From a virus: DNA of 24,325 bases. Under the pieces are notes generated by a model, which had not been told where the DNA came from, did no database searches, and saw only the letters and a list, made by a program, of their open reading frames with translations. The position numbers were made by a program, and so were the translations under genes. Shown piece after piece: positions 1,996 through 17,593 of this stretch; positions within the stretch are counted from its first letter, which is position 1; each line of letters opens with the position of its first letter. The stretch is taken from positions 1 to 24,325 of IMG/VR virus record IMGVR_UViG_3300009124_000102, one strand, 5' to 3'.

Positions 1996-3223
1996 GGATG
2001 CAATTATAGAGCTCGCAAAACAGATGGGCATTGAGCTGGTTGATAAACCTGCCTCACCTCGCAACGCAAATCCTGCCACGTGGTGTCAGCTCTCCATCAA
2101 TGACAAAACAGACACCCCACATAAAACTGTTGATAACGTTGCAATCATATTGGAGACAGACCCTGTGTATGACTCGCTATGTTGGAATGAGCACTCTGAT
2201 AAGATACTGTGGAAAAATGAGCGACTATCTGACAAGCACATTATGCAGATACGCAGAGACATTGAGGTCAGGTATATGCTATCACGACCCAAAAAGGAGA
2301 TTGATGATGCAGTGATGATGGTTGCGATGAGCAAACCCATTGAGCCAATCAAAGACTATTTACTGTCTCTCAAATGGGATGGTAAACCTCGATTGCACAG
2401 ACTCCTGATTGATGCATTTAGTGCAGAGGTGTTTGACTCAACAGAGGAGTTGATTTGTGGTATGTCATTTAACTGGTTTGTCAGTGCTGTTGCACGCATC
2501 CTCAATCCTGGATGCAAAGCTGACAGTTGTCTCATCTTGGTTGGTGGTAAAGGTATGGGCAAATCAACCTCAATGCGAGTATTGGCATCAGAGCAATATT
2601 TCTCTGACTCCTTTATCGACATTGTTGGCAAGGGTGGATATGAGCTGCTGCACCAAACAGGAGCGTGGATTTGGGAACTCGCAGAGATGCACAGTTTGCA
2701 CGGCAAGTCAGCAAATGCAGCAAAACAGTTTTTGTCCTCACCTGTGGATGTGTATAGACCCTCATATGCCCGTCATCCTGTGGAGAGGAAACGACGCACC
2801 ATTTTTTGTGCCACAACCAACGACTATCAGTTTTTGACAGATGGTGCAGAGCGACGATTTTATCCTATCAAAATCACCAAACCCATCGACATTGACTATC
2901 TCACCACCCACAGACACCAAATATGGGCAGAGGCAGTGCATCATTATCAACAACCTGACAGCTGTTGGTGGTTTGACGACAACACAAACCTCAGTCACTA
3001 CCAAAAAGCATTTATCGTGCAAGACCCGTGGGCAATCAGAGTCATACAATCCATCGAAAAATCAACAATCAAATGCACCACTGCAGACATTATGATTGAT
3101 TTGGAACTACCCATATCACAGCAGCACTCTGGTAACTCTCGCAGGATTGCACAAATCTGCAGAGATTGTGGATATGAGCAAACTGTGGTTAAGGGCACAA
3201 CATATTGGAGTAAAAAACAATGA
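1988..3223 (+). CDS. VirE/VapE-type replicative helicase (P-loop ATPase)
   Basis: Likely the replicative DNA helicase paired with the upstream AEP primase; this pairing is common in phages and mobile islands. The 411-aa start has a CAGGAG site eight bases upstream. The ATPase core shows Walker A GGKGMGKST (186-194), a Walker B-like WIWELAE (227-233, with Glu230 and Glu233), a sensor strand ending CATTND (274-279) and an arginine-finger motif GAERRF (286-291). The N-terminal region carries the typical LKWDGKPRL block (128-136) of the VirE family. The C-terminal about 60 residues, with spaced cysteines (363, 391, 394), look like a small winged-helix or regulatory tail. Size agrees with the family. 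Confidence 0.88.
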   Translation: MSKDAIIELAKQMGIELVDKPASPRNANPATWCQLSINDKTDTPHKTVDNVAIILETDPVYDSLCWNEHSDKILWKNERLSDKHIMQIRRDIEVRYMLSRPKKEIDDAVMMVAMSKPIEPIKDYLLSLKWDGKPRLHRLLIDAFSAEVFDSTEELICGMSFNWFVSAVARILNPGCKADSCLILVGGKGMGKSTSMRVLASEQYFSDSFIDIVGKGGYELLHQTGAWIWELAEMHSLHGKSANAAKQFLSSPVDVYRPSYARHPVERKRRTIFCATTNDYQFLTDGAERRFYPIKITKPIDIDYLTTHRHQIWAEAVHHYQQPDSCWWFDDNTNLSHYQKAFIVQDPWAIRVIQSIEKSTIKCTTADIMIDLELPISQQHSGNSRRIAQICRDCGYEQTVVKGTTYWSKKQ

Positions 3224-3543
3224 CACAATTATTTTTGTTTCCTACCTCAATATATGAGCGTTGTTGGCGTGTCTCACCCACAGCAACATACACAATTTGG
3301 GAAAATTGCAACCAATATGAAACATACAACAATCAGGATGCAGTCAATCATTTTTTATCACTCTCAGCAGCTGATGAGCCTATTGAAATATATAGACTAG
3401 ACCCATACAAACACAAAAAACTAAATGACATCAGATATAACAGAATTTTGATTTGGCAATCTGATGCTGCATATGCAATCAGCAAATCAGACAATTTTGA
3501 AATAGAGCCAAAACATTTGCATTTTTTATCGGAGTTACAATGA
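3220..3543 (+). CDS. Unknown 107-aa protein
   Basis: It starts by ATGA overlap with the helicase stop and ends by ATGA overlap with the next regulator, with GGAG 11 bases before its ATG. The protein is rich in aromatic residues (Tyr, Trp, Phe), with no membrane segment and no recognised motif. Predicted as mixed alpha/beta. Being locked into the operon between helicase and regulator suggests an early function linked to replication or host control, but no role can be assigned from the sequence. Confidence 0.72.
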   Translation: MTQLFLFPTSIYERCWRVSPTATYTIWENCNQYETYNNQDAVNHFLSLSAADEPIEIYRLDPYKHKKLNDIRYNRILIWQSDAAYAISKSDNFEIEPKHLHFLSELQ

Positions 3544-3755
3544 CATATATCAAAAACTTTATGGACAGACACAACCTGTCACAATCTGATTTTGCTAAAC
3601 AGCTAGGTGTGCATCGCTCGCAGGTGTCCAGGTGGTTAAATGGTCAAAAAATGTACGATGAGAACCTTTTTGCTGTATGTGAGCTGATTGCCCACTATGA
3701 TGGTATCACTATCAATCAGGCATTTGCCAGCATATATCAGGAGCAAAAAAAATGA
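3540..3755 (+). CDS. Cro/XRE-family transcription regulator
   Basis: A 71-aa protein with a textbook helix-turn-helix: LSQSDFAKQLGVHRSQVSRW (residues 13-32) followed by LNGQKM. It probably dimerises and binds short dyads. The candidate targets in this window are the dyads at 190-209 and 17722-17736 (inference). Both ends overlap neighbours as ATGA, so it is made with the replication proteins rather than from its own promoter. No divergent CI-type partner and no integrase were found, so it is better seen as a Cro-like switch for timing of gene expression than as proof of lysogeny. Confidence 0.85.
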   Translation: MTYIKNFMDRHNLSQSDFAKQLGVHRSQVSRWLNGQKMYDENLFAVCELIAHYDGITINQAFASIYQEQKK

Positions 3756-10534: not shown

Positions 10535-12625
10535 TTAGTACGCTCCTGACCCTGCCTGTCTGCTCACTCTGCGTGCAGCTGCTCTGTTGTATCTATCAAA
10601 ATGTTTAAATGGTTGTATAATAACCAGCTCAGCACCACCCTGCCCATTTTGCAGACGTCTGATGCCCTCCTCACCGCCTAGCTGTCTCACTGTTGTCCTG
10701 TCTAGTATTGCCTCACCTCGCAGGACACTGGCTGTCAGTGAGTCAGGTTGTGATGCATCACTAGATGAGCCAATCATACCACCCACGTCAAACTTTGGAG
10801 GTGATTGGCTTGCAATCGTAGCGAGCTGGGCAGCACCCGTGGCAGATGCTGTGGCGATTGCGACACCTCTTGCAACAGGTGGCAGTGTGAGTGCTGCAGC
10901 AATTGCCTGGGCTGTCTTAAATGCGACATCAGCAACAGCGAGCGCCTGATTTGTCTTAAATACTCTCTCTTGTGCCTCTTGATTTTCACCTGCATACGCT
11001 GTCACCAATTCTGACAAACTCGCTGTCAGGTCTCCAAATGCACCCATTGTGGATGCAATCCCATCTAGGTGCTCACGTTGTGCAGCTGCCTGCAAATCCT
11101 TCTCTTTTGCAATTTGGTCAATGCGTGTCTGGTGCATATCATCAACCAGTGCCTGCATCTCCTGCTGTTCTGCAATCCTGTTTTGTGCAGCAATTTTGTC
11201 AATCTCTGCAATCTCCTCAGCGAGTACCAGTAATTGATTTTGCTCTTGTATTGATAGCTGTCTGACCTGTGATTGATTGAGGAGTGCATCATATTGGTCA
11301 TCGATGGCATCACTCTGCAATTCTATCTCTGTTCTGAGTGCGAGAATTTGATTGCGTTGCTTGGTGTATTCTGGGGTTAGTCTGTCTCTGACAGCATCTG
11401 CCAGCTCAATGTTTTTATCAAACACACCACTGATGATGTCTGTCATTGTCTGCAGCTCTGCATTTGCAGATTGCACTGATGCTGCATAACCATCCATTGA
11501 CCCACTGGCATCATCTGCACTGTTTGCTGTGCCATCCAATACAGAGCGTGATTGTGATGATGATGCATTAAACTCATCAACCCTGTCATTTGCAATTTTG
11601 AGTATATCTGCAAAATTCATTGTTGATTGTGCTGTTTTGATGGTTGCTAACTCAATCAAATCACCTGCACTCTCAAAATCTCGCCTCAACAATGCTGACC
11701 CTGCTTTTGCAGTCAAAAACAATGCCTCAAAATTATCACTCAGACGACTCAATGATGTCTCACCCACAGAGCCAAAAAATATCATCGCATCTGTTGCCAT
11801 ATCAAATGCACGTGTGATGCCACTGTCACCACCTGTGATGGCATTGAGGAGTCGTTGCATTGTCCCTGTTGCAACCGTGTCAAACTCTGCCATTTGTCGC
11901 TGGAAATCTGCCATTGATGAAATAGCGTTCTCGTTAATGGCAATACCAAAATCACGCGCGAGGTCTGTCATTGACTCCAAATTGTCCAGAGCACCTGATT
12001 GGATGAGTCCTGCACCTGCCTGTCTGCCAAACACCTGCATCGCCACTGCATTACGCTCTGTTTGATTGTCCATCTCGCCAAGTGCTTTGATTGTGTCATT
12101 AAAAACACTGTCAGCATCTCGCAGCTGTCCATTTGAGTCTGTGATTGACACACCCAGTCTATCAAAACTATCTGACAGGTTTTTGCTGCCTCTGGATGCC
12201 TCCAAAATCGAGCCTTGAAACTTTATCAGGCCACCCTCTAAATTTGCAAATGATAGCCCACTACCCTCTGCTGCGAGTCTCAACCCTGCCAACGTATCAA
12301 CAGCGATACCAGTTTTTGAGGATGCATCAACCAGCTCATTTGTCAGGTCTGCAAATCTCTGACCCAATGCGACAACACCCACACCCAATGCACCAACAGC
12401 TGCAGTCACTGCACCAAATGATTTGGTCATTTTGCTCATTTTTGAGCTGATTGATTTTGATGTGGAGTCTGCAGACCTCTCCATTTTTTTGAAATTTTTA
12501 TCTAAATCTGCAGCTGCCTTTTTTGAGGATGCATCAGTGATATCTGGTATGCGTTTGAGTGCCTTTTCCAGATCCTGTGTCGATGCTTGATAGTTGATTG
12601 ATACTGTCTTATTTACGTCTGCCAT
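10535..12625 (-). CDS. Tail tape measure protein
   Basis: Sets tail length and is ejected with the DNA. The 696-aa protein shows the usual composition: long alpha-helical, Ala/Ser/Gln-rich stretches, a hydrophobic segment at 70-89 (FGAVTAAVGALGVGVVALGQ), a second near 290, and an Ala-rich segment near 590-625 ending in GAAQLATIASQ. Coiled-coil-like regions lie at about 20-65 and 435-520. At roughly 0.15 nm per helical residue, the length predicts a tail near 100 nm, a typical siphovirus estimate and not a measurement. The start has GGTGG six bases upstream. A hidden small membrane ORF overlaps its first codons. Confidence 0.9.
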   Translation of the reverse strand: MADVNKTVSINYQASTQDLEKALKRIPDITDASSKKAAADLDKNFKKMERSADSTSKSISSKMSKMTKSFGAVTAAVGALGVGVVALGQRFADLTNELVDASSKTGIAVDTLAGLRLAAEGSGLSFANLEGGLIKFQGSILEASRGSKNLSDSFDRLGVSITDSNGQLRDADSVFNDTIKALGEMDNQTERNAVAMQVFGRQAGAGLIQSGALDNLESMTDLARDFGIAINENAISSMADFQRQMAEFDTVATGTMQRLLNAITGGDSGITRAFDMATDAMIFFGSVGETSLSRLSDNFEALFLTAKAGSALLRRDFESAGDLIELATIKTAQSTMNFADILKIANDRVDEFNASSSQSRSVLDGTANSADDASGSMDGYAASVQSANAELQTMTDIISGVFDKNIELADAVRDRLTPEYTKQRNQILALRTEIELQSDAIDDQYDALLNQSQVRQLSIQEQNQLLVLAEEIAEIDKIAAQNRIAEQQEMQALVDDMHQTRIDQIAKEKDLQAAAQREHLDGIASTMGAFGDLTASLSELVTAYAGENQEAQERVFKTNQALAVADVAFKTAQAIAAALTLPPVARGVAIATASATGAAQLATIASQSPPKFDVGGMIGSSSDASQPDSLTASVLRGEAILDRTTVRQLGGEEGIRRLQNGQGGAELVIIQPFKHFDRYNRAAARRVSRQAGSGAY

Positions 12626-12695
12626 AATACCACCATAATAACACGCATATCAAAATATACACTACAATGCACAGTGACACAAAACGTTTTATCAT
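12609..12695 (-). CDS. Hidden 28-aa single-helix membrane peptide
   Basis: This ORF begins as ATGA overlap with the stop of the gp10-like gene and ends 17 bases inside the tape measure gene. The product starts MIKRF, continues with about 17 hydrophobic residues (VSLCIVVYILICVLLWWYY) and ends GRRK. Charged ends around one uninterrupted hydrophobic core are a clear single-pass membrane pattern and unlikely by chance in the only gap between two genes. Function unknown; possibilities are an inhibitor, a lysis modulator or a leader peptide coupling tape measure translation. No good ribosome binding site precedes it, so reinitiation after the upstream stop would be needed. Confidence 0.5.
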   Translation of the reverse strand: MIKRFVSLCIVVYILICVLLWWYYGRRK

Positions 12696-13129
12696 TTTGC
12701 TCTCTTGATACGTTTGATTGTTTCATTTGCTATTTTTTTAACTACATTTTGAGCGTTTTTGCGTGCAGGTGTCCAGAGGACAGCATCTGCCAATCGTTTG
12801 CCCTCTCTCAGATTGGTATCTGATTGACGACCCACCTTGATTGCCCAGGCATACTCTGCTGTGTTGCCAACAAATGCCTCAATCGTATATGGAGGTATAA
12901 TACGCAATCCGGTCTCATGCTTAAATTTACTACCTTTTGAGCGACCATACTTTTTTTGACGTACTAGCCAACCCTCCTCAGACTCCTTTGCCAATCGCTC
13001 TGTCTCATCCTCCAAAACTTTGACAATGGCAGGGTCTGCAGCTCGCAGTGATTGCAGGATGATGTCACGTTGCAAACCGTCAATCTCAATGGATGATTTA
13101 CCCTTGCCATATCTGAGTTTGCGTGCCAT
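12692..13129 (-). CDS. HK97 gp10-like tail/neck component
   Basis: The 145-aa, strongly basic protein has the features of the HK97 gp10 family: an early DGLQRDI helix, a middle with AFVGNTAEYAWAIKVGR (residues about 85-101, matching the usual VGN..pYA.yvE.G pattern) and a C-terminal amphipathic helix rich in Lys/Arg. Members act as tail completion or head-tail joining proteins. Here the gene sits between the chaperone and the tape measure, which is unusual; it normally lies near the tail terminator upstream of the tail tube. The start has GGAG 8-9 bases upstream and follows the frameshifted chaperone stop directly (TAGATG). Confidence 0.65.
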   Translation of the reverse strand: MARKLRYGKGKSSIEIDGLQRDIILQSLRAADPAIVKVLEDETERLAKESEEGWLVRQKKYGRSKGSKFKHETGLRIIPPYTIEAFVGNTAEYAWAIKVGRQSDTNLREGKRLADAVLWTPARKNAQNVVKKIANETIKRIKRAK

Positions 13130-13671
13130 CTATCCTCTCCAATTTTTGATTTTGTCTAGCTGTGCCTTTTTGCGTTTTTTGTCTGCATCCTGTTTGGTCT
13201 CGTGACACATTACCCAATCAATATACAATCGAGCTTGCAAATCTGAGTCCAGTGATGCATACCAGTTTGGCAGCTGACCCCAAAATCGAGAGATGGCAAA
13301 ACCCTGTCTCTCTATTTGTCCAGATTTGGAGGTTCTGTAAAATTTTCAGTTTCTGCAACCTCAGATTGAGATGGTAATGCATTTGCCATCAATGTGATGC
13401 ACTGCATACCCAAATCTAAAATCTCAGGTATGGAGACACCTGCACCCAGTAATGTATCGAGACATTTTGACCCGTACTGATGCACATCAACAATGTGCCT
13501 CTGTTTGGGTAGCTTGGCATTGTCTCCACAGACACATATTGCCATCGCACACAATCTGCCTGTCACACTGCGTGATTGCTCATCACTCCACATTGACACC
13601 AAATCAAAACAAGTGCTCAGAGAGGGACGCACAAACGTCACCTCTCCAAATGTTGTCATATTTCTAAACAT
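13130..13671 (-). CDS. Tail assembly chaperone, -1 frameshift fusion (GT-type)
   Basis: Read in zero frame the gene stops at 13312 after 119 codons. If the ribosome slips -1 at A AAT TTT (13345-13339), translation leaves frame after Phe111. It then adds 69 codons of a frame that has no start of its own and ends exactly before the next gene (TAGATG). The result is a 180-aa fusion whose tail is charged and basic (ETKQDADKKRKKAQLDKIK). This mirrors the lambda G/GT arrangement, where the fusion and the short form escort the tape measure during tail assembly. The last stop of the extension frame (TGA) lies immediately before the slippery site, so the overlap window is minimal and the site is well placed. 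Confidence 0.8.
13312..13671 (-). CDS. Tail assembly chaperone, short form (G-type)
   Basis: The main, unshifted product of the same start codon, 119 aa. It is preceded by ATAAAGGGG and lies between the tail tube gene and the gp10-like gene, the usual place for the chaperone pair in siphoviruses. The sequence is small, helical and soluble, with several Cys residues in the middle (AMAICVCGD), and an acidic C-terminus (EVAETENFTEPPNLDK). Family assignment rests mainly on gene order and on the overlapping -1 frame, because chaperones of this class diverge strongly. Confidence 0.8.
   Translation of the reverse strand: MFRNMTTFGEVTFVRPSLSTCFDLVSMWSDEQSRSVTGRLCAMAICVCGDNAKLPKQRHIVDVHQYGSKCLDTLLGAGVSIPEILDLGMQCITLMANALPSQSEVAETENFTEPPNLDK
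13339..13345 (-). other. -1 ribosomal slippery heptamer (A AAT TTT)
   Basis: Read on the minus strand in frame, bases 13345-13339 form A AAT TTT, a perfect X XXY YYZ heptamer: AAT re-pairs as AAA and TTT as TTT. It begins directly after the last TGA of the -1 frame (13349-13347 region) and 25 bases before the zero-frame TAG. No strong pseudoknot was recognised downstream by eye. Confidence 0.75.
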
Positions 13672-13695: not shown

Positions 13696-14193
13696 TTATG
13701 ATTGTGCGTATGTTACACCACCATAACACTCACCAGATACCTCGATTGTATTGCCATCAGCTGACTCAGACAATGAGCTAACCTCCATCAGACATTTAGC
13801 ATATGTTGCTGTGTAGGTTTTACCTGACCCCACTGCAGAGGTATCCACCTCAAATGCTACTGTCTGCAAAAATTGCTCAAATCCATCACCACCTGTGGAT
13901 GTCAATGGAGACCCAGCGTGGATGCCTCGATTGTACAATCTGTCCATCAGGTTGTCAGCTGTGCTGTCTGTGAGACTACGCATATGCACAGAAAATGAGA
14001 ATGTGATAACAGGGTCGTCACCCTTTCTCAATCCTACAATTGCACCGCGGTCACGAATAACCACTCTGTCTGCCTTTGGCTCTGCTGCTGAAAAATCACC
14101 CACCTCAAATGACACTGCATATGCTGATGCAGCTCCATCAGTAATTGTGATAGTCCCATCTCGTCTTGTTGCTACTACACTACTGTCACTCAT
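13696..14193 (-). CDS. Major tail tube protein
   Basis: The 165-aa protein is small, soluble and beta-rich, with no membrane helix and an acidic balance, as expected for a tube subunit. It starts with AGGAG about 8 bases upstream. Location is diagnostic: after the tail terminator gene and directly before the chaperone/tape measure group. Sequence features include strands around residues 13-31 and 45-70 and a C-terminal strand pair (NTIEVSGECYGGVTYAQS), similar in style to lambda V/HK97-like tubes. Such a protein should be highly abundant in the virion. The call relies on context more than on motifs. Confidence 0.75.
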   Translation of the reverse strand: MSDSSVVATRRDGTITITDGAASAYAVSFEVGDFSAAEPKADRVVIRDRGAIVGLRKGDDPVITFSFSVHMRSLTDSTADNLMDRLYNRGIHAGSPLTSTGGDGFEQFLQTVAFEVDTSAVGSGKTYTATYAKCLMEVSSLSESADGNTIEVSGECYGGVTYAQS

Positions 14194-15923: not shown

Positions 15924-16549
15924 TACGCACCTCGTTTTTTTGATTTGGGTTTAGGATTGACAGCATCCTCAAATGTCTGCATCATTGTTTTTCTCAGCTC
16001 ATACAATCCATCAATCTCTTTTTTAATCTCTGGAATGTGTTGCATTTTGAGTCGTCTATCAATCTTTTTATCTAGCATTTTGATTTTGCTCTGCACAACC
16101 TCAATCTCAGGATAGGCAATTACACCCATCTCAATCAGCTGCAGTCTAAACTCGTTAAATCCTGCCTCATCCATATTCCAATATGTTTTTGAGCCAATGA
16201 TTTTAGGTATATTCCACTTTAACGTGTAAAAATACCCGCCAAACTTTGTCTCATATCGTGCAATATAGCCAAACTCTCTGTCAATGACATTGATGCCCTT
16301 TTCCTGCAATTTGACCCGTGTGATTGTGGAGTCTGCACCCTGTGCTGTTTCCTCAATCCCATTGACACCTGCAATCTCATTGAGATGCCCAAATTGAGGC
16401 AACCACGCCCAATTTTTATCATCTAGCTGCACCAGCTCCCACGCAAATGGAGAGTGTAACAGGTAAAATGGTGCATTTGGGTAATTGCTCACCTTTGGTG
16501 CATCTGATTGTCGTTTGTGTCCTGTCCAGGATGTTGGTGTAAAACTCAT
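15923..16549 (-). CDS. Unknown 208-aa head-region protein
   Basis: First gene after the capsid-gene terminator, with an ATAAAGGGG leader. The N-terminal half is rich in aromatics and Pro/Asn (PNAPFYLLHSPFAWELVQLD), and the middle carries WNIPKIIGSKTYWNMDEAGF. The C-terminal about 65 residues are a charged, coiled-coil-like helix ending in a Lys/Arg tail (PKPKSKKRGA). No known motif. The location between capsid and connector genes suggests a structural or assembly role; a coiled coil plus basic tail would allow contact with packaged DNA (inference). Confidence 0.7.
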   Translation of the reverse strand: MSFTPTSWTGHKRQSDAPKVSNYPNAPFYLLHSPFAWELVQLDDKNWAWLPQFGHLNEIAGVNGIEETAQGADSTITRVKLQEKGINVIDREFGYIARYETKFGGYFYTLKWNIPKIIGSKTYWNMDEAGFNEFRLQLIEMGVIAYPEIEVVQSKIKMLDKKIDRRLKMQHIPEIKKEIDGLYELRKTMMQTFEDAVNPKPKSKKRGA

Positions 16550-16669: not shown

Positions 16670-17593
16670 TTATGCATCAGTAACGATTTTCACCATGCGT
16701 GCATCTTCGATGAGCGCAGCCCCGCAATATAGGTGACCAATCACCTCTGTCAAGCCTTTTGACTCGTCACGCTGAAAAGCCACGACAACAGGAGTGCCAG
16801 CTGGACGAATTTCAATTCCTGCACCAGCGAGAGGTCGAGGTGTACCGATGGCATAACCTACTGCACCACGTGACATCATAGCACCGATTTTGTTACCTGC
16901 TGACTCCTCAACATAGGAAGATTTGAAAATGTCAACCCCACCAAACTTGCCAGCATATCCCTGACCTTTGATGTTGAGCATCTCCTCTGTGGCAGGAGAG
17001 AAAGCCAATGCATTATTTGACTCAGCACGGAGTGAGTCACGCAAATCAGACAGCTGCTGTGGATGCAGTACAGAGTAAAACTCTCCATCATTTGACTCAG
17101 ACTCAAGCTGAAACATCGCATCATAGAAATCATCAACAGACATATCAACACCTGATGTGCCCACGAAGTTTGATGCAGAGGCAAATGTTGCTGTGATGAT
17201 GGCATTGATGCGTGCCTCAGCAGACATCGCCATTTTTTGAGCAAGTGAAAATGGGTCAACATCAACACCACCAGCCAAACCAGAGAGGGCAGCCAAATCA
17301 GTGATGTCATAGCGGAGTGCAGAGCGTCCGACAGTGATGTCTACAGTTGTTGGAGTCAATGTGGTCTCAGATACGTCTGCACCATCAGAGGCAGATGCAA
17401 ATGGTGTAGCAGCTCCCCAGTTAGCATAACGCATACGCATAGATTTAGAACCGATGCCAGCAACATCGCCAGCAAAAATAAGAGCACCAGAGTTACGGAT
17501 TGATGCCATATCGGCAAGGATTGCACGCACTTCGTTTTCAATCATCGCAGCGAGACGCAAATTACCCAATCCAGAATAATCAATAATAGCCAT
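16670..17593 (-). CDS. Major capsid protein (HK97-fold type)
   Basis: Forms the head shell. The 307-aa length, N-terminal helical region (residues 1-30, with N-terminal MAIIDYSGLGN), the middle beta segments and a C-terminal domain with the GAAL-x-DARMVKI end agree with small HK97-fold capsid proteins. Residues around 175-200 (FYSVLHPQQLSDLRDSL) fit the long helix of the A-domain. No protease domain or delta domain of a cleaved precursor is obvious. It lies after the portal and scaffold genes but is separated from them by fibre-type genes and an inverted gene. An extended -10 promoter (17688-17696) and a terminator (16588-16617) suggest its own high-level unit. The ribosome binding site is weak (AGGT). 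Confidence 0.82.
   Translation of the reverse strand: MAIIDYSGLGNLRLAAMIENEVRAILADMASIRNSGALIFAGDVAGIGSKSMRMRYANWGAATPFASASDGADVSETTLTPTTVDITVGRSALRYDITDLAALSGLAGGVDVDPFSLAQKMAMSAEARINAIITATFASASNFVGTSGVDMSVDDFYDAMFQLESESNDGEFYSVLHPQQLSDLRDSLRAESNNALAFSPATEEMLNIKGQGYAGKFGGVDIFKSSYVEESAGNKIGAMMSRGAVGYAIGTPRPLAGAGIEIRPAGTPVVVAFQRDESKGLTEVIGHLYCGAALIEDARMVKIVTDA

Follow-up and report, generated by a model that had tools for sequence, protein, structure and literature searches.

Evidence for −1 programmed ribosomal frameshifting in putative phage tail assembly chaperone genes of a new sequence family

The two-frame gene and its surroundings

The window analysed in this study comprises all 24,325 bases of an IMG/VR record. 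On its minus strand, an ORF running from an ATG at 13671 to a TAG at 13314–13312 (gene coordinates 13312–13671) encodes a protein of 119 aa, which is predicted from the ORF itself, its homologs and an AlphaFold2 (AF2) model to be a gpG-like tail assembly chaperone. The string AAATTTT at 13345–13339 (minus strand) lies across the 0-frame codons GAA AAT TTT ACA; it is in register with the 0 frame and is therefore a true in-frame X_XXY_YYZ heptamer, A_AAT_TTT. The −1 frame is shut by a TGA at 13348–13346 and is open from the heptamer onwards, comprising 69 codons from TAC at 13339 to GGA at 13133 (13133–13339, minus strand), and it ends in a TAG (13130–13132, minus strand) that touches the ATG of the next gene at 13129. 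This extension is predicted to form the gpT-like part of a 180-aa fusion, as judged by its conserved protein sequence, its coding codon-position pattern and its AF2 model. No start codon is found at its beginning, the first ATG, GTG or TTG being a TTG at 13240, about 33 codons in. A previous sequence-only reading of this DNA had described the 119-codon minus-strand ORF with its in-frame A AAT TTT, the TGA directly upstream, the −1 frame open to a TAG abutting an ATG, and the missing start codon, and all of these features were found at the positions given here.

The gene lies among tail genes. Directly upstream is a gene for a 165-aa protein (13696–14193, minus strand), a conserved neighbour that is, by position only, the probable major tail protein gene; its product has no family or PDB match and no relative among phage records. 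Downstream come a gene for a 145-aa protein (12692–13129, minus strand), which matches no Pfam or PHROG family, and the tape measure protein gene (10535–12625, minus strand), which was recognized by PHROG tape measure families (best E 3.7e-24). Rfam and tRNA scans were empty. The presence of an amidase endolysin suggests a bacterial host.

Canonical slippery heptamers occur in frame at 21 places in the called genes of the window, and at 5 of the 21 the −1 frame runs past the 0-frame stop. When the codons of the 0-frame gene were shuffled and the real downstream DNA was kept, a heptamer together with at least 50 extension codons appeared in 4.1% of the shuffles; when the downstream DNA was shuffled as well, the value was 0.14%. 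The window by itself therefore gives moderate evidence for a frameshift, and it is the conservation across relatives, described below, that makes the evidence decisive.

Three other heptamers of the window may be mentioned here. On the plus strand, TTTTTTA (3522; 3516–3528) stands in frame at the end of the gene at 3220–3543, where the −1 frame enters the next, overlapping gene, and AAAAAAA (3746; 3740–3755) stands in frame at the end of the gene at 3540–3755, where the −1 frame enters an exonuclease gene; both sites are probably ordinary start–stop overlaps. On the minus strand, an in-frame AAAAAAA at 15935–15941 lies near the end of the gene at 16549–15923, and there the −1 frame is open for 46 codons past the stop.

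Conservation of the slip site and the extension in relatives

Relatives were sought with each half of the gene, and IMG/VR contigs encoding both halves were kept. The two-frame arrangement is also present in 33 other contigs, giving, with the window, 34 genes. At 95% nucleotide identity, all of these but L081 (33 genes) group into 28 clusters. The 0-frame proteins of the main clade share 43–71% identity and those of distant contigs down to about 21–40%. The group is probably marine, judging by the origin of several of the IMG samples. The fusion is encoded by none of 50,697 phage records, and two scans of GTDB genomes yielded no relative, either as host or as prophage.

Of the 34 genes, 27 carry A_AAT_TTT in frame at the corresponding position. 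The sequence-only reading had proposed that loss of the heptamer or interruption of the extension in related phages would speak against it, and this check came out in its favour: among the seven genes without an in-frame A_AAT_TTT, six have an intact two-frame gene with a slip-prone string at the same place. G_GAT_TTT takes the place of the heptamer in L079 and G_GGT_TTT in L086, while in L081 to L083 a T_TTT_TTR lies three bases downstream of that place, with G_GAT_TTT kept as well in L082. The exception among the seven is L081, which has an apparent one-base break of the 0 frame upstream of the site, with the slip string still there. Such a break is what one would expect if the two frames were a single gene damaged by sequencing error or by decay into a pseudogene; that notion is refuted by conservation and has next to no probability, since contigs of many samples, making up 28 clusters at 95% identity, share this layout and site, and the synonymous sites of the heptamer are frozen.

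In two contigs from different samples, L040 (4309–4360) and L041, which differ from each other at 7 positions over 563 nt, A_AAT_TTT is replaced by GAA GTT TTT ATA, and both GAGGT, a short element upstream of the site that is dealt with in the next section, and an intact extension are retained. We counted this loss of the canonical heptamer against the frameshift explanation. At the site in these contigs (GTTTTTA), only the second tRNA would re-pair well after a −1 slip, and from the sequence the slippage of a single tRNA, on T_TTT, seems the only kind available.

The extension evolves as a coding sequence. Its protein conservation starts at the slip site (FYRT...) in the relatives, and past the 0-frame stop the differences are mostly in third codon positions (0.33, 0.28 and 0.53 for the first, second and third positions, respectively). 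The strongest motif, FAISRFW...P.WF..L, precedes any ATG, GTG or TTG in the 24 main-clade genes, with the exceptions of L035 and L045, and no initiation codon is conserved in the relatives, either at the start of the extension or before this motif. Because conservation begins at the heptamer, the FAISRFW motif comes before the start-type codons and the differences favour third positions, initiation of the extension on its own is unlikely. It could be argued that the extension is a small gene in its own right, with its own start or with its translation coupled to that of the gene upstream: the −1 ORF overlaps the end of that gene, and GAGGT could in principle serve as a Shine–Dalgarno (SD) sequence for initiation. 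This is strongly disfavoured, since in the window the −1 frame is shut 3 nt before the heptamer, far ahead of its first start-type codon, and since the frozen synonymous sites of the heptamer would not be needed for initiation. Only some members share the TGA that immediately precedes the heptamer; in others the −1 frame remains open over a much longer stretch upstream.

A Shine–Dalgarno-like element upstream of the heptamer

The sequence-only reading did not mention the element GAGGT at 13358–13362 (minus strand), which lies 12 nt upstream of the heptamer and which we regard, from its conservation, synonymous constraint and spacing, as an internal SD-like element. GAGGT can base-pair with the 3′ end of bacterial 16S rRNA. 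In 31 of the 34 genes its distance from the slip site is exactly 12 nt. This spacing falls inside the range of 9–14 nt published for SD-like stimulators of −1 frameshifting (PMC5009743), and the presence and constraint of the element at this distance mark it as a putative stimulator.

The constraint is seen at synonymous sites. In the main clade, the mean identity of synonymous codons over the gene is 0.52 (sd 0.24), and it reaches 1.00 at Glu104 (the GAG of GAGGT) and at Glu109-Asn110-Phe111 (the heptamer); it is also 1.00 at Glu113 and Pro115, where both frames overlap. The Glu104 codon is GAG in L044, L045, L046 and L047, although GAG makes up 20, 11, 2 and 5% of their Glu codons, respectively. 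Over 24 genomes, the nominal probability of GAG comes to about 5e-10 and that of AAT and of TTT to about 1e-5 in each case. The significance is overstated by these values, because related genomes are treated as independent and because the product for AAT includes L040, which has no AAT.

The sequence-only reading is also silent on RNA structure downstream of the slip site; none was found to be conserved in stem folds and a consensus fold: z-scores of single folds ranged from −0.3 to −1.7, the consensus fold was empty (2 pairs), and the mean folding energy after the slip site was no lower than elsewhere in the gene. GAGGT and its 12-nt distance are mostly fixed, while the slip string varies (AAATTTT, GGATTTT, GGGTTTT, TTTTTTR and GTTTTTA, the last with the single-tRNA slip suggested for L040 and L041). 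We lean slightly towards the view that this tail chaperone frameshift depends not on RNA structure but on pairing of the mRNA with 16S rRNA.

The conserved element also bears on whether the frame change might arise from slippage of RNA polymerase. The A-T richness of the site speaks for such slippage, but known transcriptional slippage sites require runs of the kind A(n>7) or T(n>8) (PMC3711429), whereas the runs here are A4 and T4, and up to T6 in distant members, and the conservation of GAGGT at 12 nt upstream favours the ribosome. Polymerase slippage is therefore extremely unlikely.

Protein identity, proposed mechanism and known systems

Neither half of the gene matches a Pfam or PHROG family, as searched with the window proteins and 31 aligned members, and neither has a sequence match in the PDB; direct searches with the Phage_TAC_5 and Phage_TAC_6 models were negative as well. 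The gene thus lies outside the known Pfam and PHROG families of tail assembly chaperones. The 0-frame protein and the extension were folded by AF2 as separate chains, giving a β-hairpin followed by helices for the former (pLDDT 82) and a helical model for the latter (pLDDT 85). In fold searches, the best viral-library match of the 0-frame protein was a tail assembly chaperone, weak at E 0.28, and the highest TM-score in its PDB list was that of YqbN (3klu; 0.40, weak, E 3.2), which we take to be a member of a tail chaperone family. For the extension, a tail assembly chaperone of a Bacillus phage came at rank 6 (TM 0.72, weak, E 1.0). These weak matches of predicted models agree with a tail assembly chaperone and point the same way.

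Gene order is consistent with this. In the relatives checked, the order is 165-aa gene, chaperone, extension and tape measure gene; the 165-aa gene is upstream in all 17 mapped relatives, and the tape measure gene is downstream in 16 of the 17, the contig of L047 ending before that place is reached. The pair is thus placed as a G/GT pair would be, upstream of the tape measure gene and downstream of the probable major tail protein gene, the latter so named by position only. Most relatives have the 145-aa gene between the extension and the tape measure gene; L079 lacks it there, and its extension adjoins the tape measure gene directly. The assignment as a tail assembly chaperone is a prediction made mainly from gene order and the frameshift, together with the weak fold matches, without a family match. 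A true −1 frameshift yielding proteins with some other tail or accessory role would fit the fact that neither part matches a family or, with confidence, a fold, and also the intervening 145-aa gene. We consider such a role unlikely, given the position of the pair shortly ahead of the tape measure gene in the relatives checked (with no gene between in L079), the size of both parts, and the naming of tail assembly chaperones by the weak matches in both viral-model searches.

Taken together, the evidence is best read as a −1 frameshift of the lambda G/GT type, with mRNA:16S pairing as its stimulator, in tail assembly chaperones that form a new sequence family. We estimate from sequence evidence a probability of about 0.92 for this reading, by which a tail assembly chaperone gene yields two proteins through −1 programmed ribosomal frameshifting. 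The G/GT-type frameshift that the sequence-only reading had put forward is supported by the heptamer, the relation of the frames, the extension and the genomic place across many lineages, and its in-frame site and −1 coding sequence are conserved in the relatives. We infer the slippage, its rate, the SD pairing and the chaperone function from the anatomy of the locus, conservation, synonymous constraint and gene order. The majority of ribosomes would read the 119 codons and stop at the TAG at 13314–13312, giving the G-like chaperone. In a minority, the anti-SD of the 16S rRNA would pair with GAGGT 12 nt upstream, and these ribosomes would slip from AAT_TTT to AAA_TTT at 13345–13339 and read 69 more codons, giving the 180-aa GT-like fusion (...AETENF-YRTSKSGQIER...). 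If the two parts act as they do in lambda, G would coat the tape measure protein and T would recruit tail tube subunits (PMC5009743; PMC4493119).

The mechanism is already known, the G/GT frameshift being conserved in tailed phages (PMC5009743; PMC4493119), and in HK97-like tail chaperone genes 6–7% shifting has been measured (PMC3711429). What had gone unrecognized is the gene family, which belongs to little-known uncultured phages, and the helper signal just before its slip site is unusually strict. The 69-codon segment, present in dozens of environmental phage contigs, would be missed or misplaced by gene calling based on start codons, and GAGGT-N12-AAATTTT offers a sequence signature for finding such extensions. 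The relatives also provide a natural series of slippery strings at a fixed place and usually in a fixed SD context, which may help to test how far an SD-like element by itself, with no downstream structure, can drive −1 slippage.

Like lambda G/GT and its relatives (e.g., TP901-1), the gene is short, lies upstream of the tape measure gene and has a putative −1 slip site near its 3′ end (PMC5009743; PMC4493119). An extension without its own start and a fusion as the minor product are likewise shared with lambda (PMC5009743; PMC4493119), here as predicted from sequence. It differs from lambda G/GT in that no sequence relation was found, and in its conserved SD-like element at 12 nt and the 145-aa gene that usually precedes the tape measure gene; the heptamer of TP901-1 is GGGAAAG, compared with A_AAT_TTT here. 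The −1 frameshifts of E. coli dnaX and of IS elements also have an internal SD-like sequence 9–14 nt upstream of X_XXY_YYZ (PMC5009743); dnaX has in addition a downstream stem-loop, whereas none is conserved here, and the product here is a phage protein. The same heptamer, as AAAUUUU, is used by the umbraviruses GRV and E-TBTV, where it was termed a conventional slippery sequence (PMC4737148), although these are plant RNA viruses whose genes and stimulators are unrelated.

Among the 50,697 phage records, only that of phage DSL-LC06 (OR003941) contains a detectable relative of the capsid protein of the window, a remote match, and its head–tail gene order is similar. Its chaperone has no sequence relation to that of the window. 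In DSL-LC06, the annotated tail assembly chaperone gene (16983–17503) ends with an in-frame A_AAA_AAC at 17312, and an unannotated −1 extension fills the gap before the tape measure gene.
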